The notes under the pieces were generated by a model that made no database searches, had not been told where the DNA came from, and saw nothing but the letters and a program-made list of their open reading frames with translations. From a virus: a DNA stretch of 24,540 bases. Position numbers and translations under genes: made by a program. Position 1 is the stretch's first letter; each line of letters begins with the position of its first letter. Of the stretch, positions 1 through 23,128 are shown one piece after another. The DNA is taken from positions 1-24,540 of IMG/VR virus record IMGVR_UViG_3300044825_000127. One strand, given 5' to 3'.

Positions 1-199
1 CGCCAATCATAAACAATTCATCAATAGCGGATAGCGCGCCAATCGCCTGAAATTGCTGCTCAAGAGGTGCCATGATGTTCACAATGTGCGGCTCAAACCC
101 GTGTGCCGCAAACCCGATAGCAATATGGCGGGCAAAGTTTTCTGTGACGCCATACGGATGTGTGTTTGTAAGTATGCAAATCCTGCGATGCGTTTTCAT
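1..199 (-). CDS. Partial gene, N-terminal 66 residues; possible glycosyltransferase
   Basis: The frame opens with ATG at 199 and runs off the left edge, so only the first 66 residues are visible. They begin MKTHRRICILTNTHPYGV, continue with a helix-like stretch (ENFARHIAIGFAAHGFEPHI) and then a second strand. This beta-alpha-beta pattern, with an Asn-Thr-His-Pro-Tyr-Gly loop after strand 1, resembles the N-terminal Rossmann half of GT-B glycosyltransferases, but no catalytic part is present. The start overlaps the stop of the upstream glycosyltransferase as ATGA, and GGGGTG lies just upstream, so translation is probably coupled. The family is inferred from fold pattern and context only; another Rossmann-type enzyme is equally possible. 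Confidence 0.6.
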   Translation of the reverse strand, partial: MKTHRRICILTNTHPYGVTENFARHIAIGFAAHGFEPHIVNIMAPLEQQFQAIGALSAIDELFMIG

Positions 200-846
200 G
201 TTTGCACCCCAAACCATTTTTTGGCGTATTCCGGCCTGTGCTCAACGATCCACGGTGCGGCTGCACCGATCAACGCTTTAGCGTCACGCCCAACCGTCAT
301 GCTTCCTGCGTGATGTACATAAGCGCGTGACACGAAATGCTTGTAACCGTCTGCCGCCATGTCAGCGCACACAACGTCATCACTAAACCAGTTGATCGGC
401 GGAAACGGATGATCCTTGATCGCTTTGGCGTTCACCCAGGTAAAGATCGGGCTGATCACGTCAACGGGTTTGATGGCATCCTCTGAGCGCCAGCGGCACA
501 TCTCAATTGCGTCACCTTCGTTGCGCGGTACTCTGATGTTTTGCGGTGGTCGCACAAAGTCTGAACGCGCTGCGATGAAGCCAATGCGCTTGCACACTTT
601 GCTCAGTGCCGCCACGTCATCAAGCAATAACGACATGGTTTGTGGCGTGATCACAACATCATCGTTAGCAATGATGAACGAATCATCACCTTCTGCAAAC
701 GCTTCAATAGCTGCGTTGTAGTCATCGCCAAAGTTTCCAAGTTTCCCGTCCCATACGCACAACTGCACACCTTTGGCGTAATGAAATACGCTGGACTTCA
801 TGACATGCAACGTTGGGCTTCCTGTGGTTGATATGATTATTTTCAT
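196..846 (-). CDS. GT-A-like glycosyltransferase
   Basis: A 216-residue protein. The start is taken as ATG at 846, which overlaps the previous stop as ATGA; the frame is open ten codons further upstream, but only inside the preceding gene. It begins MKIIISTTGSP, has an acidic NDD motif at residues 61-63 after a hydrophobic strand (SFIIANDD), then a second acidic pair at 156-157 (FSDD) and a His-His near 178-179. A strand ending in a DxD-like acidic cluster, with a downstream acidic/His element, is the usual layout of GT-A (GT2-like) enzymes that bind a metal and nucleotide-sugar. No membrane segment is seen, so it would act in the cytoplasm. It sits directly downstream of the C-methyltransferase and epimerase, which suggests it transfers a modified sugar. 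Donor and acceptor are unknown. Confidence 0.6.
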   Translation of the reverse strand: MKIIISTTGSPTLHVMKSSVFHYAKGVQLCVWDGKLGNFGDDYNAAIEAFAEGDDSFIIANDDVVITPQTMSLLLDDVAALSKVCKRIGFIAARSDFVRPPQNIRVPRNEGDAIEMCRWRSEDAIKPVDVISPIFTWVNAKAIKDHPFPPINWFSDDVVCADMAADGYKHFVSRAYVHHAGSMTVGRDAKALIGAAAPWIVEHRPEYAKKWFGVQT

Positions 847-1061
847 GCGGGCCAATGTCCTACGCGTCTCAAGCACTCGATAGCGCGGCGGCGAACCACG
901 GCATCCTGAAAGCGTCCGTATTGCTCCAAGCCTTTGAGCGTTTCAATGCAATCAGTTAGGTTTTCCATCGCTTCGGAATACTTTGATTCCAACTCGCTAA
1001 TCGCTGACGCTTTGCTGCGCTTCTTTTCTGGTTGTTGCTCATCAACTGAAAACTCATCCAT
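843..1061 (-). CDS. Small coiled-coil-like protein of unknown function
   Basis: A 72-residue protein starting at ATG 1061, overlapping the end of the methyltransferase by 8 bases and ending in an ATGA overlap with the glycosyltransferase. The N-terminus is charged (Glu/Lys/Ser, residues 1-20). The rest is predicted helical with Leu/Ile spaced as in a short coiled coil (residues about 21-47), followed by an Arg-rich helix (VVRRRAIECLRR). I recognise no domain. Its position wedged between two sugar genes suggests an accessory role or a small unrelated phage protein. Confidence 0.6.
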   Translation of the reverse strand: MDEFSVDEQQPEKKRSKASAISELESKYSEAMENLTDCIETLKGLEQYGRFQDAVVRRRAIECLRRVGHWPA

Positions 1062-2259
1062 GGAGTGATTCCTTAAAGGTCATTGGGAAAGGCGTTAAAA
1101 CAGAATCGTAAAGATGTGGATCGCGCAGTGCTTGCAACTTTCGTATCAGTTCTTGCTTAAAGTTCCATGCGCCAAGGATAAAAAGGCACTTTTGCCTGAT
1201 CTCCGATACGGTTTGAAGCGCAACAATTTGCTGCGTGGAGTTCGGAAGGTACTTACCGATCTTCAATGGCGATTCATCCACCACGACATGCGGATCGTCG
1301 TTAATGGCTTGCATCAGCGTGACTGCTTTGGCGGCACAACCAACCATCACCACCACATACCCATCACTTTTGGCTTGCTTGATGACGGATCGCATGGATT
1401 CCACGGCACGGTTTACGCCATTGGCAAATCGTTGGCCGTCCATCCACGTCAGCTGGTGCAACCTTCCCTCGTTCCACTTGCTCGGTGCAAATGGAATCGG
1501 ACTCGGAAACGAGTCGCGCTTACATACTGCTGCAAGCATTGATCCGCCATGCACGTTAACGCGCTGGCGAAAACCTACTCTTAAACCCGCCCTGGTACAC
1601 GCCAAAGTAAACGAGTCAACCGTGAAAAAAGAAACGTGCTCGTGATAAATCGTGTCGAATTCACCATTGGCGAGCATATCCATTTGGCTTACTTGTATGT
1701 ACGCAACGCCATCATCCGTTAAGCAAGCCTCAATGCCTTTGAGAAACGCAATCGGATCGTCGTTATGCGCCAACACGTTCATGGCGATCACAACGTCATA
1801 ACGTTCATTGCCCATGTTCAAAGGCCAATAGGCCGGGATCGTGTAAACGCCTTTTTTGCTTGAAAGTTCAAGCAAATTCTTTGCTGGTTCAATCCCCGTC
1901 ACGGTTGCGCCACGCTTGGCAAGTTTCTGCAGCAACGTTCCATCGTTGCTCGCAATCTCAAGCACGTCAGCGTTCGGGTGATGAAGCGAAACGTTCTCTG
2001 CGAACCATTCAAAGTAATCGTTAAGCGTGTTGCTCGTGCCACTAACGTATAGATAGTGATCGAACAGTTCTTTGGCGTTGTAGCTCACCTTTTGCATAAC
2101 GTGCGTACATTGTGTGCACATCTGCGCAGCAAGCCTTGCGCAGCGCACAAATGTGTTGGGATTGTTCTTTAGCGCGTTGGCGGGTGGTTGCTCGCCAAGA
2201 TCAAAGATCATTTCTGTTTTCCCCTCGCAAAGCAAGCATTGGTTAATTGTTTTGTCCAT
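1054..2259 (-). CDS. SAM-dependent sugar C-methyltransferase (TylC3/NovU type)
   Basis: 401 residues from ATG 2259. This start is preferred to the longer frame (to 2376) because AAGAGAG precedes it and the extension lies inside the epimerase gene. Three parts match the known C-methyltransferase architecture: an N-terminal zinc site (C8xxC11 and C48xxC51), a class I Rossmann domain with motif I at 99-110 (VLEIASNDGTLL), and a C-terminal domain from about residue 300 with a second nucleotide-fold-like strand (VVVMVGCAAKA). The YHEH motif at 205-208, followed by a Phe-Phe-Thr stretch, is the hallmark of NDP-keto-sugar C-methyltransferases such as TylC3, NovU and TcaB9. Length fits the family (about 410). 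Family knowledge implies transfer of a methyl from SAM to a keto-sugar nucleotide carbon. The substrate here is unknown. It overlaps the epimerase by 17 bases. Confidence 0.9.
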   Translation of the reverse strand: MDKTINQCLLCEGKTEMIFDLGEQPPANALKNNPNTFVRCARLAAQMCTQCTHVMQKVSYNAKELFDHYLYVSGTSNTLNDYFEWFAENVSLHHPNADVLEIASNDGTLLQKLAKRGATVTGIEPAKNLLELSSKKGVYTIPAYWPLNMGNERYDVVIAMNVLAHNDDPIAFLKGIEACLTDDGVAYIQVSQMDMLANGEFDTIYHEHVSFFTVDSFTLACTRAGLRVGFRQRVNVHGGSMLAAVCKRDSFPSPIPFAPSKWNEGRLHQLTWMDGQRFANGVNRAVESMRSVIKQAKSDGYVVVMVGCAAKAVTLMQAINDDPHVVVDESPLKIGKYLPNSTQQIVALQTVSEIRQKCLFILGAWNFKQELIRKLQALRDPHLYDSVLTPFPMTFKESLHG

Positions 2260-3037
2260 AAGCTCTCTTGAAGTGTTCGCAGCGTTCTTGTATTGAATAG
2301 AGTTGCGGAATCGTTGGGAGCGCAAACGAATATGTGCCTGTGCTAACACCAAACTCAACCGGGACTTTGTAAACACTTGCCACCTCGTGCGCTAGCTCGC
2401 CAATGCTCATGGTGTAAGACGCCAACGGATAAATGCCTTGCGCGCTGTCATCCTCAATGATTTCCATCACGCGTTCCGCTAAGTCGTCATGGAACAAAAT
2501 ACTTCGCATCGCATCGGGATTAGTAACGTAAACGCGCCCCTCTTCAATCGCTGATCGGTTCATCGCGTTGAAGATCAAATGCCATCGCATCTTTGGCGAC
2601 CATCCGCTTACCGTGCCCATGCGCAAACCAACCACGCGCTTGCCCATGTACTTAGCCACCAAATCGAATGACAACTTGCTGGCGTCATAAGCGTTCTCGC
2701 GCTGTTCGTTAGCCACCAACGAATCACCGTTTGAGAGCAACGATCCTGTGCTGGCGTAAATCAGCCTTGTGTGTGCCGCCATGCGCTCAAGTAGACACAA
2801 TGTGTATACAACGTTCTCCGCTACAGCTCGATGAGGTTGGCGGTTAGCGTCGGCAACATTAGATACGCCAGCAAAGAAAAGGATCTCATCAAACGCACTA
2901 AGTGCAACGTCTGACATGTCTATGAAATCCATGCCCGTTTTTATATCAACAGCCACAAGATTCACGTCATGCGCAATGTTTTTCAGCAATTGGCTGCCAA
3001 CGTAACCCTCAGATCCAATAAGCAAGACGCGCTTCAT
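2243..3037 (-). CDS. Extended SDR NAD-dependent sugar epimerase/dehydratase
   Basis: 264 residues from ATG 3037, which overlaps the preceding stop as ATGA. The N-terminus carries the dinucleotide-binding GxxGxxG loop (G8, G11, G14) after strand MKRVLLIG, with Asp31 at the end of strand 2 as in NAD-binding enzymes. The catalytic set is present: Ser96-Thr97 in IYASTGS and YxxxK at 117-121 (YDASK). A C-terminal substrate domain follows but is short; family members usually reach 300-340 residues. Such enzymes epimerise, dehydrate or reduce nucleotide sugars in the cytoplasm. Its overlap with the C-methyltransferase suggests the two act on one sugar nucleotide. The reaction cannot be chosen from sequence alone. 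Confidence 0.88.
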   Translation of the reverse strand: MKRVLLIGSEGYVGSQLLKNIAHDVNLVAVDIKTGMDFIDMSDVALSAFDEILFFAGVSNVADANRQPHRAVAENVVYTLCLLERMAAHTRLIYASTGSLLSNGDSLVANEQRENAYDASKLSFDLVAKYMGKRVVGLRMGTVSGWSPKMRWHLIFNAMNRSAIEEGRVYVTNPDAMRSILFHDDLAERVMEIIEDDSAQGIYPLASYTMSIGELAHEVASVYKVPVEFGVSTGTYSFALPTIPQLYSIQERCEHFKRAYGQNN

Positions 3038-15552: not shown

Positions 15553-16677
15553 TTACGCGGCATCTCGCCACGGTGAATTGATGGGTGTCCATATGTTGGA
15601 CGGATCTGTGATGTTTGTCCAAGTGGTGGTTACAGGTGCAACGGGTTCCCATTTCAAACCGCCATCGGCTGACATGGATGAAATTTCTGAACCAGCAGCC
15701 CTTGCATACCAAGTAACAGTTGCCAATGCCGTAACGCTTGATTCGGCATTAGCTTGTGCTTGCGGACTTGCATCAACGTTTGCATCAGCCGTTGCACTTG
15801 ATATGGCATTGGCAATAGCTTGTGAACCTGCATCAATTTCAGCGTTTGCCGTAACCGTTGATTCAGACACGGCAAGCGCAATGCCGCCGCGAACCGCAAT
15901 CCCTGTTGCAGACTGTTCACTGGTGCTGGCGGCCTGCGCGGTGCCATCTCTGACAAATTCTCCTGATGCGCTTGCCGTGGTTGTGCTGGTTGCGGTTGCG
16001 GTTCCTGATTGAAGGAATGCACCACTTGCCGTTGCGTTTGTTTCGGATACTGCACTAGCGGTTGCGCTAAACCGTATACCGCCAAGCGCAGTTTGTGTTG
16101 AATCGCTTGCAGCGGCAGCTGTTCCCGAGAACAGAATGCCGCCTGTTGCAGTTGCTTCGCTTGTGCTTGTGGCAAATGCCGATTGACCAGAAACAACTTC
16201 AGCACTTGCGCTAACCGTTGATGTTGATGCGGCAGTTGCCGTGCCATCGGCAACCATTTGCCCGGTTGCTGTTGCACTGGTATCGCTTGATGCTGGCGCA
16301 TCACTTTGGCGTATAGCCGTTCCGCTAGCCGTTTGCGTTGATTCGCTTGCTGCTGCGGCTGCGCCATCTTGAATGATGGTGCCAGTTGCCGTAACCGTTG
16401 AAACTGAATTTGCTTCAGCGGTTGCGCTAATAACGCCAGCACCCGCCGAATATGGCCCTGAACCATAGGCATAGAATCCATAGTTAGCCAATCCGCCTGA
16501 CGTTTTCTCGCCATCTGCGGTTGCGCTAGATACGGCAGTGCTAACGGCCTCGGCTTCAATGGCATCTGGAGCGGAATACTTCCCCAGGCCATAGGCACCA
16601 ACGCCGTAATTATCGACAGGCGCATCGGTTCCCCATTTGCCACTGCCGTAAGCACCATTGCCATAGTTAAGGGCCAT
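15553..16677 (-). CDS. Repeat-rich structural or fibre protein (twelve 20-residue repeats)
   Basis: 374 residues from ATG 16677; the ribosome site is weak. Three parts are visible. Residues 1-80 carry three copies of an NYGxGAYGxGKYS-like motif (4-16, 23-35, 65-77). Residues 86-325 are twelve consecutive repeats of exactly 20 residues with consensus TAxAxSxSxxTATGxIVxDG, almost all Ala/Ser/Thr/Gly with no Lys and very few charged residues. Residues 326-374 form a Trp-rich end (TTTWTNITDPSNIWTPINSP). A regular 20-residue period with alternating small residues fits a stacked beta-solenoid or beta-roll shaft. No family is recognised. Position among fibre genes supports an extended virion appendage. 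Shadow frames across the gene on both strands are a side effect of the repeats. Confidence 0.8.
   Translation of the reverse strand: MALNYGNGAYGSGKWGTDAPVDNYGVGAYGLGKYSAPDAIEAEAVSTAVSSATADGEKTSGGLANYGFYAYGSGPYSAGAGVISATAEANSVSTVTATGTIIQDGAAAAASESTQTASGTAIRQSDAPASSDTSATATGQMVADGTATAASTSTVSASAEVVSGQSAFATSTSEATATGGILFSGTAAAASDSTQTALGGIRFSATASAVSETNATASGAFLQSGTATATSTTTASASGEFVRDGTAQAASTSEQSATGIAVRGGIALAVSESTVTANAEIDAGSQAIANAISSATADANVDASPQAQANAESSVTALATVTWYARAAGSEISSMSADGGLKWEPVAPVTTTWTNITDPSNIWTPINSPWRDAA
15703..16422 (-). repeat. Tandem coding repeat, 12 units of 60 bp
   Basis: Twelve in-frame units of 60 bp encode residues 86-325 of the 374-aa protein. All units keep the exact length with no insertion. 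The protein pattern is conserved (small residue at 2 and 4, Ser near 6, Ala at 12, Gly at 14, hydrophobics at 16-17, Gly at 20), while bases differ from unit to unit. The array is therefore old or under selection, not a fresh duplication. Units 10-12 diverge most. A degraded extra unit lies upstream in the protein at about residues 43-62. Confidence 0.9.
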
Positions 16678-16681
16678 TCAC

Positions 16682-17077
16682 TTACGCCAAAGTGACTGAC
16701 AGATTCCCAGTTGCAAAACGGAATACATCACCACTTCCAACTGCTTTGCTTGCCGTTAGATCGGCCCATGACAGCATATTGCCTGATGTGCTTGCGTCGA
16801 AAATGGCAGCCGCCACAACCGTACCCCATGAACCGGATGCCGTTGGAAATTCAACGTTAGCCGAATTGGATGCTGTTGTTGGCGATGTACCTGTCACACT
16901 GAACGTTGCCGCGGTGCGTGCGTAGCTGTTGCCCGATACTTCCGTACCGCCGCCAGCATCCGTAGGTGCAACGGTAAATAGTCCAACGTAAAGCGAAGAT
17001 GGCGACGTGTAAGACGTGTTGGTAAACACATGCTTCATCACTTTATCTTCAAGATAATCTGAAAATGAACCTGCCAT
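16682..17077 (-). CDS. Small phage structural protein
   Basis: 131 residues from ATG 17077 with a strong AAGGAGC upstream. The N-terminus (GSFSDYLEDKVMKHVFTNTSY) followed by SSLYVGLFTVAPTDAGGGTEV is a well-known phage pattern: a helix with SxYLExxxxxHxF, then a strand with VGLFT and a Gly-rich loop. The rest is beta-rich (VEFPTASGSWGTVVAAAIFD, then GDVFRFATGNLSVTL). Homologous proteins are usually annotated as tail or structural proteins of unknown detail. It lies between the adaptor and the repeat protein, consistent with a tail or fibre-base component. Confidence 0.75.
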   Translation of the reverse strand: MAGSFSDYLEDKVMKHVFTNTSYTSPSSLYVGLFTVAPTDAGGGTEVSGNSYARTAATFSVTGTSPTTASNSANVEFPTASGSWGTVVAAAIFDASTSGNMLSWADLTASKAVGSGDVFRFATGNLSVTLA

Positions 17078-17078
17078 G

Positions 17079-17699
17079 TTAGTAGCTCCTTGCTCTCATG
17101 CGCGGCGTGGTGCCGCTAAAGTTTGACCTTTGCTCTTCAAGCATTAGATCGTTAAAGGCTTCCTTATATAAGGTGCCCCAGGTAGTGATGCGGTCATCAT
17201 CGCGCAAGTAAGGTGCGCTCTGAACCAATGCGCCATATAGGTACATGGCTGGCGATTTCGTAAGCAACCAGTTGCTTGTGTTGCTATCTGAAAGCGCCGG
17301 AATCTTTTTGTAGTACGACATCTCAACCGTGTATTCGCCACCAGGCGTTGGGATCACTTCAAACGTTTGACCGACAATCGAGTAATACTTTGGTTCGTTG
17401 GCGGCTGCAAAGTAAGTGGATCGCAAATCGTCGGCTTGCTCGTTGCTCACAAATGACAGCTTCATAGGCGTTGCTGTGTTCAACTGAATGTTGATCATTT
17501 GCAGGAAATCGGCTGGCAATTCCGTGTACTGCGTATCAAGTGATGCGGTTGCGCGCTGCACCATATCGCGTGTGCGGATCGTGCGGTTAAACGTTGCTTC
17601 CGCCAAAACAATAAACGATGGAATGACGGACGTTAAGTCATCGCGGTTGATCCAATCCGCAATGCTTGATTTGAGTCCGCTGAATGTGTCGAGTGCCAT
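17079..17699 (-). CDS. Head-tail adaptor protein
   Basis: 206 residues from ATG 17699, which overlaps the glycosyltransferase stop as TGATG and has AAGGTGG upstream; the TTG one codon earlier is not needed. The N-terminal helix (TFSGLKSSIADWINRDDLT) and SFIVLAEATFNRTIRTRDM (about 27-46) are the typical opening of short-tailed phage adaptors (T7 gp11 / SU10 adaptor-like). Downstream lies ELPADFLQMINIQ, then a beta region with EVIPTPGGEYTVEMSYYKKIP and a final helix (TWGTLYKEAFNDLMLEEQ). It would form a ring below the portal and connect to the tail. Family length is usually about 190-220. Confidence 0.82.
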   Translation of the reverse strand: MALDTFSGLKSSIADWINRDDLTSVIPSFIVLAEATFNRTIRTRDMVQRATASLDTQYTELPADFLQMINIQLNTATPMKLSFVSNEQADDLRSTYFAAANEPKYYSIVGQTFEVIPTPGGEYTVEMSYYKKIPALSDSNTSNWLLTKSPAMYLYGALVQSAPYLRDDDRITTWGTLYKEAFNDLMLEEQRSNFSGTTPRMRARSY

Positions 17700-18400
17700 C
17701 AAGCCACCTTTTGAGTTTCGACCGGAGCGCCAGCTGCTTTTCTGCGCTCATCTTCCATCGGTCGGAGTGCCCAAGTATGCTCGTGCTTATACTCGAAGGT
17801 TCCTATATGTCCAATTTGCTTGGACAGGTCATGATCAATATACAACGGAATGCCGTTATCCCGCAACAACTTGCAGAAATACACATCCTCGCCCATGTAA
17901 CCCTTGGCCTGTACATCCCATGGCGTTGCAAACCATGGCATATCAATCACTTTGAAAACGTTGATGTCCACCAGCATCACGCCAGTGCCAACCATGTCAA
18001 CTTGCTCCAAACCTGTATCTTCGGGCATCGAGTAACGTAATACTTTTCTTCCTGTTGCTTTATCGTAGTTGCCAGCCGTGGGGCCGGTTGGCATTCTGCG
18101 CCTGGCGCAGTTTGCCGCCACAACGCATTCGCCATGGGCCAGTAGGCGCGCAATAGTGTCAGCCGGAAAGCGCATGTCGCTATCAAGGAATAGCAGATAG
18201 TCTGCATTCGCGTGTATGGCGTTCATGACTAATTCGGTGCGCTGCGAGCAAAGCAATGTGCCTTGACTCATCAGCAAATTCACAATGTCACCCGTGTTGC
18301 CAATGTGGTGGCTAACAGCATTCACCAAGTCAAAGGTAAACATCGTATGCACTTCATCGCGTGCCGGCACGCAAACAGAAATAATCCGTTTATCAGTCAT
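17699..18400 (-). CDS. GT-A glycosyltransferase encoded in the head module
   Basis: 233 residues from ATG 18400, overlapping the preceding stop as TAATG, with GGGAGGG 4-5 bases upstream. The fold signs are clear: first strand RIISVCVPARDEVH, helix 2 (SQRTELVMNAIHANADYLLF), and a DSD metal-binding motif at 73-75 (FLDSDMRFP). A mid segment VDMVGTGVMLVDINVF and a GEDVYFCKLLRDNGIP motif (170-185) hold the usual acceptor-side acid, and His198 may complete metal binding (GHIG). It would transfer a sugar from a nucleotide donor in the cytoplasm. Lying between capsid and adaptor genes, it could glycosylate a virion protein; the acceptor is unknown. Confidence 0.8.
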   Translation of the reverse strand: MTDKRIISVCVPARDEVHTMFTFDLVNAVSHHIGNTGDIVNLLMSQGTLLCSQRTELVMNAIHANADYLLFLDSDMRFPADTIARLLAHGECVVAANCARRRMPTGPTAGNYDKATGRKVLRYSMPEDTGLEQVDMVGTGVMLVDINVFKVIDMPWFATPWDVQAKGYMGEDVYFCKLLRDNGIPLYIDHDLSKQIGHIGTFEYKHEHTWALRPMEDERRKAAGAPVETQKVA

Positions 18401-18720
18401 TAAACCCTCCCAGGTCTTGTGCGAAAGTGTCGGTTATCTGGATCATTAAGCCAGCGCTTAAAGTCCGTTTGATTGCGCGTGATGCCTTTACCTACCAATT
18501 CCATAAATAAATTCATGGGAATAGAAGCGACCTTCACGCCATGACCATCACCTGACCATCTTGCACGTTCATCGACCTGGTTGAATTCAGTCTTATTGGT
18601 TTCAACAATGGGTTGGACGTTTTGGATTGTCTCGATGACAGCCGTATCGGTATCCTCATCAAAATGCCAGATTCGGGTGATACCTAGAAGCTCGTCTTGT
18701 TCAAAGATCCGTTTTTCCAT
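18400..18720 (-). CDS. Protein of unknown function after the capsid terminator
   Basis: 106 residues from ATG 18720. A longer frame starts at a TTG at 18759, but those 13 codons would span the terminator hairpin, so ATG is preferred even though no clear Shine-Dalgarno precedes it. The N-terminus (MEKRIFEQDELLGITRIWHFDEDTDTAVIETI) looks beta-stranded. The rest has SxPMNLFMELVGKGI and a C-terminal helix (FKRWLNDPDNRHFRTRPGRV). No domain recognised. The C-terminal segment with a Trp-Leu-Asn-Asp-Pro motif is typical of a small phage protein seen near head genes. Confidence 0.7.
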   Translation of the reverse strand: MEKRIFEQDELLGITRIWHFDEDTDTAVIETIQNVQPIVETNKTEFNQVDERARWSGDGHGVKVASIPMNLFMELVGKGITRNQTDFKRWLNDPDNRHFRTRPGRV

Positions 18721-18722
18721 GT

Positions 18723-18746
18723 AAAAAAGGGCGGGTTTCCCCGCCC
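18723..18746 (-). terminator. Intrinsic terminator after the capsid gene
   Basis: On the minus strand a perfect 7-bp GC stem (GGGCGGG with CCCGCCC) closes a GAAA tetraloop and is followed by TTTTTT. It lies 15 bases after the capsid stop and immediately before ATG 18720. It should cap or stabilise the abundant capsid transcript while allowing partial read-through into the tail genes, a common phage arrangement. Confidence 0.9.
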
Positions 18747-18761
18747 CTTCCTGAGTCAAGA

Positions 18762-19724
18762 TTACGACGTGAGCAGGTCAGCGGCAATGCCGTGTGCCTT
18801 CTCGTTGTATACGGCAAGGCCGTATTCCGCCAAAAGTAAGCGCTTCTCAGCGTCACCCGTGGTTGCAAGTTCAACTTGCTGGAATGGGCGCAGGAAGTGA
18901 ACGCCAGCGTAGTCAGGCGAAAGAACAAACGCATCGCGCTCGCGCTGGAACCTGTTTGGAACAATGTTCACTTGGCCGAAATCACCAACGTAAACATCAG
19001 CTGCGCCAATGATCTGTGCCTGTTTGCCTGCTGGCACGTCACGATAGCGCGTTGCAATGCCGTTGAAACCGCTAACGGTTTGCTTGTTAACTGGGCCAGT
19101 CATCACAATCGAAGGCTCGCCGCCACTTGTCCACACTTGCTGAAGAACGCTCTTAAGGATCGTCTCAGTGAACGTGCGCACGGTACCGTCTGAACGCGTT
19201 GCGGTTGGCAGTGTGGTGTACGAAGGATTGCCGCCACCCGAACCAACGGATGTGTTGGTTTTGATGAACGCTAACAACGATCCGGTTTTCTGTGCCGTTG
19301 TCGAGTCACCAGCGGTTGCGCCTTGGTTGGCAAGCAGGATGGTTTCCATATCGCGCTTGAGTTCAGCGGCCTTTTTCGCCAATTGATAAGCAAGCTCGGA
19401 CTTGCGACCTGCTTTGTTAACCGCTTCCATGGTGCCGGAAATCACAACAGTCTTGCGGCTGATCTGTGTGTAATTGCCTAGCTGAACGGTTGGCGTTACG
19501 GCTTCATAGGTGGTTAGATCGTCACCTTGCAGTGCAGCATTGCTGGTTGTTGCATCAGAAAGTGCGTCGGTCTGCCACTGGAACAGGGTATTGGCAGCGG
19601 TGCCGCGGCCAATGTTGTTCATGAAAGGCGTGGTTTCTGGGGAAATGTTGTAAATCTGATTGGACAGATCCTCACGGATACCCTTTGCAGAGTAGGTGAG
19701 GAAGGTATTACTGGCGATAGTCAT
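18762..19724 (-). CDS. Major capsid protein (SU10/DUF5309 type)
   Basis: 320 residues from ATG 19724 with AAGGAAC upstream. The opening (IREDLSNQIYNISPETTPFMN, then TLFQWQTDAL) and the segment YTQISRKTVVISGTMEAVNKAGRKSELAYQL (about 83-113) match the HK97-fold SU10-type capsid family. A helix with KKAAELKRDMETILL follows, then a Gly/Ser/Thr-rich loop, and a C-terminal GDFGQVNIVPNRFQ / FLRPFQQVELATTGDAEKRLLLAEYGL block typical of this family's A-domain. It forms the head shell around the scaffold encoded just upstream. The gene is followed by a strong terminator. The N-terminus shows no long delta domain, consistent with a separate scaffold. Confidence 0.93.
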   Translation of the reverse strand: MTIASNTFLTYSAKGIREDLSNQIYNISPETTPFMNNIGRGTAANTLFQWQTDALSDATTSNAALQGDDLTTYEAVTPTVQLGNYTQISRKTVVISGTMEAVNKAGRKSELAYQLAKKAAELKRDMETILLANQGATAGDSTTAQKTGSLLAFIKTNTSVGSGGGNPSYTTLPTATRSDGTVRTFTETILKSVLQQVWTSGGEPSIVMTGPVNKQTVSGFNGIATRYRDVPAGKQAQIIGAADVYVGDFGQVNIVPNRFQRERDAFVLSPDYAGVHFLRPFQQVELATTGDAEKRLLLAEYGLAVYNEKAHGIAADLLTS

Positions 19725-19733
19725 GATTGTTCC

Positions 19734-20735
19734 TTAAAGAAATTGCTCAAAAAGTTTGGCGGCGTCTTTAACGCTACCCGTTTTTGCAAGGCGCTGTCTG
19801 GCGCGTGTTATCTCGTTCACTTGAACCTTTGCGGCTTGTGGATTACCTGGTGCAACAGTTTTTGCTTTTGGCGCAACAACATTGGGTTTGATGCTTTGTT
19901 GCTTGGACATGATTTGATCAAACATCATGGCCTTGCGCAGCACCTTCACAACACGATGATCAACGACACCCTTCAGATCATCAGGCGTGAATCCCTCTTT
20001 AACGCCAAACTCAATCAACGCGGACTTTTCAGCCTTAGCCGTTTTTTCATCTCGCCACTCCGGGATGGCAGAGACAAGCAAACTAGCCTCTTCCTTCAAC
20101 CTGGCTTGCATTGCGCGTTGCACTTCCTGCTGCTGTAGCGTGTTTAATCGTTGGAGTTCAGCCTGTGATGCCGCTAATTTCTCCGAACGCTGACGCGCTA
20201 ACTCGGTTTGCCGCACCCACTCAATAGGATCTTCACGGTAAAGACGCTCCATATCAACGGGTGATTCCTGTTGCTGTTGCAATTGTTGTTGCAAAGCAGT
20301 CAACAGTTGTGAATAAGTGGCACGCTCTTCACGAACCGCATTCAACTCGGCTTCAGCTGCTTTGCGCTGTTCTGCCAAGGCTTGCGTCTTTCGTGTGTAG
20401 TCTGCCGTGCGCTGGTAGCCCTTTAACAACTCGTCGAGCGGAACCGCCTCTTCCTTACCGTCAATTTTGACGGTGAAAGTGGGTGGCTCGTCTGGTTGCT
20501 TGCTTTCCTCGCTTTCATCAGACTCGCTGGACGCTTCAACTTCTTCGGGCACTTCGCCTTGCTGACCCGCTTCTGCTTCAACGTCCCCTGACGCCTCAAC
20601 CTCATCGGTTTCGGCTTGCGCCTTCTCTGGTGCCTGTTCTCCGCTTTCCTCGGCAAGCAACGCTTCAAAGGCTTGTGCGGCTTCCCGCACACTCATGGCG
20701 GCATTATCCGCCAAAACTACATTCTCGTCACTCAT
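19734..20735 (-). CDS. Scaffolding protein
   Basis: 333 residues from ATG 20735 with AAGAGGAA upstream; it ends 9 bases before the capsid start. Residues about 30-85 are very acidic (Glu/Asp/Ser-rich). A short FTVKIDGKEEAVPLDELLKGYQRTADYTRK block (87-116) is the common signature of phage scaffolds. A long Gln/Glu/Ala coiled coil follows (about 117-220), and the C-terminus is basic (LKGVVDHRVVKVLRKAM, then ARQRLAKTGSVKDAAKLFEQF), the usual capsid-binding end. It guides procapsid assembly and is lost or degraded before maturation. No protease motif is visible. Confidence 0.9.
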   Translation of the reverse strand: MSDENVVLADNAAMSVREAAQAFEALLAEESGEQAPEKAQAETDEVEASGDVEAEAGQQGEVPEEVEASSESDESEESKQPDEPPTFTVKIDGKEEAVPLDELLKGYQRTADYTRKTQALAEQRKAAEAELNAVREERATYSQLLTALQQQLQQQQESPVDMERLYREDPIEWVRQTELARQRSEKLAASQAELQRLNTLQQQEVQRAMQARLKEEASLLVSAIPEWRDEKTAKAEKSALIEFGVKEGFTPDDLKGVVDHRVVKVLRKAMMFDQIMSKQQSIKPNVVAPKAKTVAPGNPQAAKVQVNEITRARQRLAKTGSVKDAAKLFEQFL

Positions 20736-20744
20736 TGTTTCCTC

Positions 20745-21005
20745 TTAGATTTCGGCGCGCTTGCGCATACGATCAATCGTCATGCGCGTGAGCGTGCCAT
20801 CGCTGATTGCACTTGACAGATATTGTTGCACTCTGTCAAGTGCTTTGAATTCAAAATGGATGCGTTCGCGTGCTTCAGTGGTTTCCGCCATAGCCCAATC
20901 ATCAAGCAATTGCTGGCGGATACCCATCCACGCATCCTTGTACAGATTACTTTCTAATATGCGTTGCGCTTCGTGAGCGCGCTTAATCTTTTCTTCGGCT
21001 GTCAT
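20745..21005 (-). CDS. Small helical protein between portal and scaffold
   Basis: 86 residues from ATG 21005, overlapping the portal stop as ATGA. It is all helical: EKIKRAHEAQRILESNLYKDAW, then LLDDWAMAETTEARERIHFEFKALDRVQQYL and a basic tail. The pattern, Arg/Glu-rich with conserved Trp26, is common for small proteins encoded between portal and scaffold in short-tailed phages; the function is usually unassigned. A role in head assembly or packaging is inferred from position only. Confidence 0.7.
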   Translation of the reverse strand: MTAEEKIKRAHEAQRILESNLYKDAWMGIRQQLLDDWAMAETTEARERIHFEFKALDRVQQYLSSAISDGTLTRMTIDRMRKRAEI

Positions 21006-23128
21006 TGCATCGGCTGCACGGCTTGCGCGATTGCATCAAGTTGCATGCGCTCACGATCCATATTCACTTTGGCGTCAATCTCTGCCTGCGCTTGAGCAAG
21101 GCTTACGCCATACTTGAGTTCCATTTCCTGGCGTCTTAGCACACCGTCTTGCGCAATGCGATCACGTTCACGATCATCGGCACGGATCATCTTTTCGCGC
21201 TCGAGGGCAAGTTCAGCGGCTTTCTTTTCAATGTCAGCCTGGATGGCTTGAACTTGCACCGCGGTAAGTGCCTCGGATGGATCGGGGCGCGGTTGTGGTT
21301 GCGGTGGACTGTAATCCATAGGCAACTGATTGATAAATTGCGTCGTGTCCTTGTATCCCGCCAACTCGATAATCTTGGTAAGCGTTCCTGCGTACTGACC
21401 AACCGTAACCAACGGATTGTTTGGCCCAAGACTTTGCAGGATTTGCTCTTGCTTGGCTGCAATGGCTTGCAAGAATTGCAAACGCTCATCGCTATTGCCC
21501 GTTCCAAGCCCAACGTTAACGCTCACATCCATCATGGCGTCCCATCCGCGCGGATCAACCTCAATCCACTGGTTGCGCAAACGGACAACACGAGGCTTAT
21601 CTTGGTTTTGCGTGATCAGGCGCAGCAATCCCTTAAATAACCGCTTCATGCCGATTTCGGCAAAGATACGAGCAATCAGTTCAATGTGTTGCTGCGCGGC
21701 TTGCACGGTGGCTTGAACCGCCAAGCGCGTTGTCGATTGCAAGGCATCAGCGTTAAGGCCCATGGACGCTTTAGACATGCCAGTGCGCGCTTCTTTCACC
21801 TGATCCATGTACTCGATCATGGAAAACGCTTGCTGACCAACAAATGGCGTTGAAAATGGCTGCACCATGCCTGGTGCGCGCATCCTAATGATTGCGCCGT
21901 TCTCATTGTTCAGCACGTCATCCATGTTCACTTGACCTTCCACAACCGCGGTGCGCGGGTGAATGGATTGCGCCAAGGAATCAAGCATATTGCGAAGAAT
22001 CACGGACTTGATGCGCTGAATGTCCATCGTCACATCAGCTGTTGACATACCAAAAAAGGTATGCGGTTCAGGATCGGGCACAAAGTAAGTGAACGGAATA
22101 TCGTCAGCGGGTTCGTTCGCCACAATCTTATAAGACGGGCCCATAGTGCAAATCTTGCGCAACTCGGCAAGTCCATCACCATCCATATCCATGCGGATAT
22201 AGGCTTCCAGGTACAGAATTCTGCGCTGCGAGGGATTGTTGTCGCTTTCGCCAAACATCATTTGCGCGGGATTGCGGGCAATGCGCTCAATGTTTGTGTC
22301 TAGCTCATCTTCACCCGTATTGGCTTCAACTTCTTCTTGGTCATAGCCCATGGCGACCAGCTCGCTGACCGTTGCCAACTTGCGATGCGCCACAATATCA
22401 GCGTCATCAAACGTGCGGGCGCGTCTGTCAATAATAAATTCTTCAGGCGCAAGCGATTCAACGCGAAACTTCTTGTGCGTAATGCGGCGGCTTACTTTGA
22501 CTTCGTGAACCAACACGGTTGGCGTGAGTTGCTGGCCGGTGATCGGATCAATGATCGGTGGTGGCGCGTTGGGATCTGGCTCGCTTTGCAGATCAACCAT
22601 TTCAACGCCATCCTGACTAAGCAGCAACGTTAGCTGCGCGTCATCCATGCCGGAATATGACTCGTTTTTGATCTCGGTGCGCTCGTCGACCCACCACTTG
22701 ATCACACCTGTTTTACGCACCAAAGCGTCTTTGAATGCCGAGTGAAGCGTAACGAAGAAATTGTTATCCTCGTTTAAGATGTATTTCACATAATCCGTGG
22801 CTTGCTCTGCCATCGGCACATCTTCTTTTGAGCGTGGAATGTACTGAACAACATTCTCGCTACTGAAAAATATGCGCATCAGGCTTGGCAAAATAGCCTG
22901 CACGGTATCGCGCACATCCATCGAAACAACCTGGCTGCGCCCTTCTTCTTCATCGCCAAAAGGATCGCCAAAGTAATACTCGGTGGCTTTGGCGCGTAAG
23001 TTGCCAATCTCTAAATCAATAAAGTTAACGGCATCCGTAAGTTCAGCGGCAACGATTGCCTGAACTTCAGTATCGTCCATGGCTTGCCCAGACTTCGCGC
23101 CGGTTTCGAGTTCCGTTTCAATGTCCAT
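21002..23128 (-). CDS. Portal protein
   Basis: 708 residues from ATG 23128. The N-terminal third shows the portal core pattern: IDLEIGNLRAKATEYYFGDPFGDEEEGRSQVVSxDVRDTVQAILPSLMRIFFSS, then TDYVKYILNEDNNFF and VRKTGVIKWWVDE. Mid-protein elements include FVPDPEPHTFFGMSTADVTMDIQRIKSVILRNMLDSLAQ, which resembles the stem and crown joint of short-tailed phage portals. The last 100 residues are a charged helix (EKKAAELALEREKMIRADDRERDRIAQDG), consistent with a barrel or tail-side coiled coil. Twelve copies would form the DNA entry ring and contact terminase, scaffold and adaptor. At 708 residues it is in the range of P22-like and SU10-like portals. Confidence 0.93.
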   Translation of the reverse strand: MDIETELETGAKSGQAMDDTEVQAIVAAELTDAVNFIDLEIGNLRAKATEYYFGDPFGDEEEGRSQVVSMDVRDTVQAILPSLMRIFFSSENVVQYIPRSKEDVPMAEQATDYVKYILNEDNNFFVTLHSAFKDALVRKTGVIKWWVDERTEIKNESYSGMDDAQLTLLLSQDGVEMVDLQSEPDPNAPPPIIDPITGQQLTPTVLVHEVKVSRRITHKKFRVESLAPEEFIIDRRARTFDDADIVAHRKLATVSELVAMGYDQEEVEANTGEDELDTNIERIARNPAQMMFGESDNNPSQRRILYLEAYIRMDMDGDGLAELRKICTMGPSYKIVANEPADDIPFTYFVPDPEPHTFFGMSTADVTMDIQRIKSVILRNMLDSLAQSIHPRTAVVEGQVNMDDVLNNENGAIIRMRAPGMVQPFSTPFVGQQAFSMIEYMDQVKEARTGMSKASMGLNADALQSTTRLAVQATVQAAQQHIELIARIFAEIGMKRLFKGLLRLITQNQDKPRVVRLRNQWIEVDPRGWDAMMDVSVNVGLGTGNSDERLQFLQAIAAKQEQILQSLGPNNPLVTVGQYAGTLTKIIELAGYKDTTQFINQLPMDYSPPQPQPRPDPSEALTAVQVQAIQADIEKKAAELALEREKMIRADDRERDRIAQDGVLRRQEMELKYGVSLAQAQAEIDAKVNMDRERMQLDAIAQAVQPMQ

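Follow-up and report, generated by a model that had tools for sequence, protein, structure and literature searches.

Phage virions are usually regarded as bare protein. Glycosylation of the virion has been proven for a few mycobacteriophages according to two papers (PMC12363180, PMC11256854), where the enzymes of Che8 (gp110), Corndog (gp38) and Myrna are reported to glycosylate proteins of the capsid and the tail tube (Freeman et al. 2023, as cited in PMC12363180 and PMC11256854). Like the enzyme discussed below, they are encoded by phages; in the F1 phage Maravista, as PMC11256854 describes it, the glycosyltransferases are encoded, unlike here, close to the genome's 3' end and outside the head block.

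The closest solved protein is A197 of the archaeal virus STIV (Sulfolobus turreted icosahedral virus; PDB 2c0n), a minimal single-domain GT-A glycosyltransferase from a virus with a glycosylated capsid protein. In PMC10551542, A197 is reported as essential, its deletion yielding no viral genomes and the D151E substitution delaying replication; the capsid protein of STIV is described there as glycosylated, with A197 suggested as the enzyme responsible. Its acceptor is thus likewise suspected only, and the virus itself is unlike a tailed phage, being non-tailed and having a double-jelly-roll capsid. Among cellular systems, FlmG glycosylates the flagellins of Caulobacter before their assembly (PMC7591256), and this enzyme differs from the phage protein in being of the GT-B type with a TPR targeting domain.

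Phage virion glycosylation as such is already known; what is new in the locus described here is the proposed class of A197-like enzymes and the fixed place of its phage members in the head module. A search of the open-licence literature, outside which most subscription papers lie, yielded no published account of a head-module enzyme of this kind.

The glycosyltransferase and the head module of the window

The window, the whole stretch of DNA analysed, is an IMG/VR virus record of 24,540 bases from an uncultured water phage. All of its features located in this text are on the minus strand. The head module is of the podovirus type and runs in the order portal, 86-aa gene, scaffold, major capsid protein, 106-aa gene, glycosyltransferase, adaptor and Gp80. 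The portal protein (21002..23128; SU10_portal, 711 bits), the major capsid protein (18762..19724; SU10_MCP, 325.9 bits) and the head-tail adaptor directly downstream of the glycosyltransferase (17079..17699, alternative TTG start at 17702; SU10_adaptor, 125.7 bits) place the module among those of SU10/LUZ24-like phages. The scaffolding-like protein (19734..20735) is recognised by its position and by homologues annotated as scaffold, and the Gp80-like fibre or minor tail protein (16682..17077) by a profile match. The gene next upstream of the glycosyltransferase encodes a 106-aa protein (18400..18720) matching phrog_3982, a family of unknown function with homologues in LUZ24 (gp61) and phiM5; among solved structures it found no match (best E 0.14). 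Its start codon was chosen by inspection, the longer TTG start at 18759 being one that would cross the hairpin described below. The gene order departs from that of LUZ24 in that the glycosyltransferase separates the 106-aa homologue from the adaptor, whereas the two adjoin directly in LUZ24, Lyrsu01 and Venkman.

The glycosyltransferase gene (17699..18400) encodes 233 residues. Its product matches phrog_1574 with an E-value of 2.7e-15 and passes two Pfam gathering cut-offs by a small amount, Glyco_transf_21 with 22.4 bits (cut-off 21.7) and Anp1 with 29.3 bits (cut-off 28.8); the Anp1 match covers residues 49-114 only, and the homologues L193 and L085 score below that cut-off. The AlphaFold2 model, built on an alignment of 26 window and IMG/VR sequences, reached a pLDDT of 92.9, and Foldseek retrieved 171 PDB matches with E <= 0.001 headed by GT-A enzymes, so that the predicted fold is GT-A. 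Residues R54 (codon 18239-18241), D73 (18182-18184), D75 (18176-18178), E171 (17888-17890) and D172 (17885-17887) are invariant in 157/157 distinct homologues of at least 185 residues, and H198 (17807-17809) is present in 156 of them, with one gap; all six occur in 12/12 distant members picked by hand. The D-x-D metal site, the acidic catalytic region and the C-terminal histidine of GT-A enzymes are thus all in place, and the original prediction of a GT-A enzyme with DSD and GED motifs is borne out by a real open reading frame in which these motifs occupy residues 73-75 and 170-172. The dN/dS ratio, 0.03-0.07 against seven close relatives, is similar to that of the capsid gene and shows the enzyme gene to be under purifying selection. 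No strong transmembrane helix was found, the maximum 19-residue hydropathy being 1.67, with 13 of the 157 homologues above 1.6. Taken together, sequence and model predict an active, metal-dependent and soluble glycosyltransferase.

The ATG of the glycosyltransferase gene (18400-18398) overlaps the TAA stop of the 106-aa gene by one base (TAATG), and its TGA stop (17701-17699) overlaps the ATG of the adaptor gene in the same way (TGATG), or by more with the TTG at 17702 as the start. Shine-Dalgarno-like runs found by inspection precede both starts: GGGAGGG (18405..18411) falls within the 106-aa gene, 4 nt ahead of the ATG of the glycosyltransferase, and AAGGTGG (17704..17710) within the last part of the glycosyltransferase gene, ahead of the start of the adaptor. 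Because of these one-base overlaps and the runs before each start, the enzyme is probably translated in a chain with the 106-aa protein and the adaptor. The tight overlap originally described had included the capsid gene, and in this part the description does not hold, since 41 nt, containing a hairpin of the intrinsic-terminator type, lie between the capsid stop and the 106-aa ATG. This hairpin (18723..18752; folding energy -22.2 kcal/mol, z -3.7) is followed by T residues; it was spotted by eye and then folded, having been missed by an automated promoter/terminator scan. LUZ24 has an annotated terminator at the equivalent spot after its capsid gene, and a strict scan detected such a hairpin in at least 35 of 104 representative loci (at least 26/80 with the enzyme and at least 9/24 without it), a lower bound because the same scan misses the hairpin of the window. 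The terminator leaves the capsid gene outside the translation chain, and since it cuts that gene off from the enzyme gene, it is with the 106-aa protein and the adaptor that the enzyme is tightly coupled. It probably sets the excess of capsid protein over the products of the head-completion genes.

Position among relatives and inheritance

In the 80 loci recruited by the enzyme in a first scan, among 88 relatives, the enzyme gene lies between the 106-aa gene and the adaptor gene wherever both are readable. As this set had been selected for the enzyme, a second recruitment relied on the capsid profile alone; the best 80 of 591 loci were taken, which restricts the set to close kin, and one proved unreadable. 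The enzyme occupies the slot in 62 of the 79 readable loci from these best 80 of 591, and in the other 17 of the 79 the 106-aa gene abuts the adaptor. Among 196 correctly oriented loci with both flanks recognised, duplicate contigs included, the enzyme gene directly adjoins that of the adaptor in every one of the 196 and that of the 106-aa protein in 192. A variable position, which the original prediction had named as evidence against itself, is thus not what the relatives display: the gene keeps the same slot beside the head genes in 196/196 loci. In the four exceptions (L127 / L191, L147 and L224) a further 400-470 nt of sequence separates the glycosyltransferase gene from the 106-aa gene.

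When presence of the enzyme is mapped on a tree of capsid sequences with 104 tips (80 with the enzyme and 24 without), 6 gain or loss changes are required, compared with 21.9 for shuffled labels; some of these tips had been recruited through the enzyme, which inflates the clustering. In pairwise comparisons the distances between enzymes follow those between capsid proteins with a Spearman coefficient of 0.885, the value being 0.901 for portal and capsid and 0.743 for the fibre protein Gp80 and capsid; relatives have exchanged the fibre gene for another while retaining the enzyme. The enzyme is inherited with the head module, and its fixed position could also come by descent from one insertion. 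The synonymous divergence of the 106-aa, glycosyltransferase and adaptor genes (window 17079-18720) differs several-fold to tens-fold in comparisons with L002, L004, L008, L010 and L015; against L010 the dS is 0.03 for the 106-aa gene and 0.70 for the adaptor, and against L015 it is 1.83 and 0.15, respectively. Such jumps between neighbouring genes point to recombination breakpoints in and around the glycosyltransferase gene.

The lineage is represented by hundreds of environmental contigs, with at least 583 matching stretches. A matching capsid is present in 316 phage records, of which only four match the enzyme by tblastn, all of them uncultured Manatee Spring genomes, and a profile search of the inspected regions of phiM5, Venkman, HTVC106P, ppBeUSDA76-2, MJing1, Lyrsu01 and LUZ24 did not detect it. 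In phiM5 the gap between the capsid gene and the 106-aa homologue holds an SGNH hydrolase gene (L088 5897-7207) whose product is annotated as detected in the particle; the interval between capsid and adaptor may serve more widely as a place for genes that modify the coat.

Kin of the enzyme beyond the freshwater lineage

In a profile search of 177,635 distinct PDB sequences STIV A197 was the best match (E 4.4e-4) and yeast Mnn9 the second (3.1e-3). The GED motif of A197 aligns with that of the window enzyme, and D151 of A197 corresponds to D172 when counted along the aligned chain. In the structural comparison with VIA-align 2, A197 likewise came out on top (Z 19.8, 2.1 A, 168 aligned residues of 191 in the target), tied with LH3 at Z 19.6 and followed by Mnn9 and mimivirus R699; ranked by Foldseek E-value, COLGALT1 is first and A197 fifth. 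The window enzyme is thus related in sequence to the phrog_1574 / STIV A197-like glycosyltransferases and shares with A197 a minimal fold covering nearly the whole chain, at 19% identity. The collagen glycosyltransferases LH3 and COLGALT1 and mimivirus R699 (Z 15.7-19.6) are multi-domain proteins with 14-17% identity, although LH3 and COLGALT1 do act on a polypeptide acceptor; the LH3 match falls on residues 293-536, which we take to be an accessory domain and not the catalytic one. Mnn9, of the Pfam family Anp1 (PF03452), is similar by its Z of 17.7 and by a profile match just over the cut-off, with the difference that this match is limited to residues 49-114; Mnn9 works within the mannan polymerase complex, lengthening glycans that are already in place.

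One scan of prokaryote genomes yielded 19 homologues of the enzyme. In six of the 19, a raw count, the gene comes first, second or third behind a recognised capsid gene; these capsids are of the window type by a profile made for this analysis (L246, L247), of phrog_1328 (L249, L254, L258) and of phrog_267 (L255). Two further homologues follow a portal gene (L257, L260), seven have no recognised structural neighbour, and the remaining four (L250-L253), from metagenome-assembled genomes labelled Alphaproteobacteria or proteobacterium, lie directly upstream of genes for flagellin, FlbT and FlaF, with TPR proteins encoded farther along. These flagellin-linked enzymes share with the window enzyme 33-37% identity and a place directly upstream of the gene of a self-assembling protein, and the catalytic residues are present in the three complete members tested; they differ in being cellular, in the company of FlbT, FlaF and TPR proteins, and their function is a presumed one. 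The TPR proteins of L250 match a glycosyltransferase marginally and are reminiscent of FlmG. In the family of one flagellin-linked genome the gene occurs, at E <= 1e-20, in 9 of 24 genomes, some of which also belong to the 19 homologues above, and flagellin is adjacent in seven of the nine; of the other two, one ends with the contig and in one flagellin was not seen within the fetched flank. In L251 (7180-8612) and L252 (7237-8591) two tandem overlapping glycosyltransferase genes lie upstream of flagellin, the second being of the window family.

A scan of IMG/VR with the L255 enzyme added eight loci: two in which the gene follows capsid genes of the phrog_267 type (assigned by profile in L281 and through resemblance to L255 in L280), two in which it follows phrog_371 capsid genes (L284, L285), one truncated at the enzyme and three without a recognised capsid gene. 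Microcystis phage Mel-JY34 (L085) and L265 have two divergent phrog_1328 capsids, and the enzyme gene, in Mel-JY34 a divergent homologue, follows the capsid gene in each. Altogether, members of the family follow capsid genes of three PHROG families (phrog_1328, phrog_267 and phrog_371) at a distance of one to three genes. A search of viral contigs for relatives of the L258 enzyme found none, and in vir323 (L086) phrog_1574 lies in the structural region with no capsid gene recognised beside it.

It can be suggested, tentatively and as something we regard as possible more than expected, that small A197-like glycosyltransferases form a cross-domain class dedicated to the subunits of self-assembling protein coats, and routine in the freshwater lineage. 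If so, the class would cover tailed-phage capsids, the capsid of an archaeal non-tailed virus and alphaproteobacterial flagellin filaments; the enzyme would be a standing part of the head module in a large uncultured lineage of freshwater phages, and virion glycosylation would be routine there and not an oddity of actinobacterial phages. A head-module glycosyltransferase would make glycosylation of the coat common among uncultured phages, with a bearing on adsorption and particle stability. The question of the A197 acceptor would also gain many new systems, the flagellin-linked members offering another route to donor and acceptor.

Acceptors and alternative readings

The reading we favour, with moderate confidence, is that the enzyme glycosylates a virion protein. 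The phage would make the glycosyltransferase together with its head-completion proteins, and the enzyme, acting in the cytoplasm of the host, would add a sugar to a protein of the phage's own virion before assembly or in its course. Cytoplasmic modification of the subunits before assembly is suggested by the enzyme being small, having no strong membrane helix and being made with head-completion proteins, as well as by the several kinds of capsid gene that adjoin it and the flagellin genes that adjoin it in bacteria. Action during virion assembly, already proposed on the basis of the window, gains strength from the fixed slot, from the other capsid types and flagellin genes found as neighbours, and from kinship with A197, itself suspected of capsid glycosylation. 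The modification may serve receptor contact, stability or shielding.

The neighbour that the distant members have in common is the capsid protein, which makes it the first candidate for the acceptor; that it is the one modified we hold to be plausible, somewhat short of an even chance, and a small head-associated protein or the adaptor comes next. The enzyme gene of the window lies nearer to the adaptor and 106-aa genes than to the capsid gene. Sites of the capsid, 106-aa and adaptor proteins co-varying with the enzyme gave Fisher p values as low as 2e-12, and no site is claimed from them: on retesting of six capsid sites these values dissolved, since only three independent pairs lie on supported branches, and within those three pairs no capsid residue co-varied convincingly with presence of the enzyme.

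That the adaptor, the 106-aa protein or the tail fibre is the acceptor would be a sub-case overlapping the favoured explanation. The overlap of the enzyme gene by a single base with each of its two neighbours and the terminator that sets the capsid gene apart speak for it, as does the serine and threonine content (27-29%) of the Gp80, 374-aa and 241-aa proteins; the 374-aa protein (15553-16677), Ala/Ser/Thr-rich, repetitive and rapidly replaced in relatives, is likely a fibre or spacer. In L085, L254, L258 and L265, however, the enzyme follows the capsid gene with no recognised 106-aa homologue between them, and we consider an acceptor other than the capsid protein rather unlikely. The Ser/Thr-rich fibre, one of the acceptors originally proposed, found no support, as its gene is swapped while the enzyme stays and the proteins encoded downstream of the adaptor do not differ significantly in serine plus threonine (medians 0.289 in 43 loci with the enzyme and 0.268 in 8 without, p 0.11, for representatives continuing for 3.5 kb beyond the adaptor and uncorrected for kinship).

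Phage glycosyltransferases are commonly morons, and the enzyme might instead modify host surface or cytosolic glycans, in receptor masking, superinfection exclusion or host takeover, while riding in the late operon. The many phages with the same capsid and no such gene would fit this, as would a weak match to phrog_34859, filed under moron/host takeover. Its position and inheritance are nonetheless those of a head-module gene, its homologues neighbour flagellin genes and the capsid genes of further families, it has no strong transmembrane helix (maximum 1.67), and late expression would be ill-timed for blocking superinfection, all of which make a host glycan an unlikely target. Still less probable is a neutral cargo gene in a permissive gap of the head operon, whose position would be functionally meaningless. 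The slot is empty in 17/79 of the loci from the best 80 of 591, and phiM5 carries its unrelated SGNH hydrolase in the neighbouring gap between the capsid and 106-aa genes, yet the annotation of that hydrolase counts it among the proteins found in the particle, and the dN/dS of 0.03-0.07 and the recurrence of the enzyme after other capsid families and by flagellin are not what cargo would lead one to expect. A catalytically idle GT-like protein serving as a structural or assembly factor would suit a place among assembly genes and has a parallel in vaccinia H3, a GT-fold envelope protein among the fold matches (5ej0); with the D-x-D and E-D residues invariant in 157/157 homologues, and retained together with the histidine in 12 distant members including flagellin-linked ones, we regard it as highly improbable.

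For glycosylation of a virion protein, the donor sugar may come from the host pool or be altered by enzymes encoded at the left edge of the window, where an NAD-dependent epimerase/dehydratase (2243..3037) and a C-methyltransferase-like protein (1054..2376) could modify the donor. The original prediction placed the other sugar genes far off at this edge; they are indeed there, these two together with a second and different GT-A-like gene (196..846), but remoteness from the head genes does not hold in the sister clade, where a homologue of the second gene adjoins the portal gene. Such homologues lie just upstream of the portal in 27 loci of that clade, and the gene is found in 25 of the 72 loci having more than 1.1 kb upstream of the portal. 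Its family had no Pfam or PHROG match at the cut-offs used, and membership in the family of the head-module enzyme was considered and set aside, a profile comparison (E 0.036, probability 1.4%) giving no support for kinship. With two enzymes linked to the head, a glycan of two sugars might conceivably be made. The second family has conserved FGxDYN, NDD, SDDV and HHxGS motifs (window 196-846, L073 1482-2180, L107 210-905 and others), and the model of its window member, with a pLDDT of 76.9 (46-51 for the other four models), retrieves GT-A enzymes.
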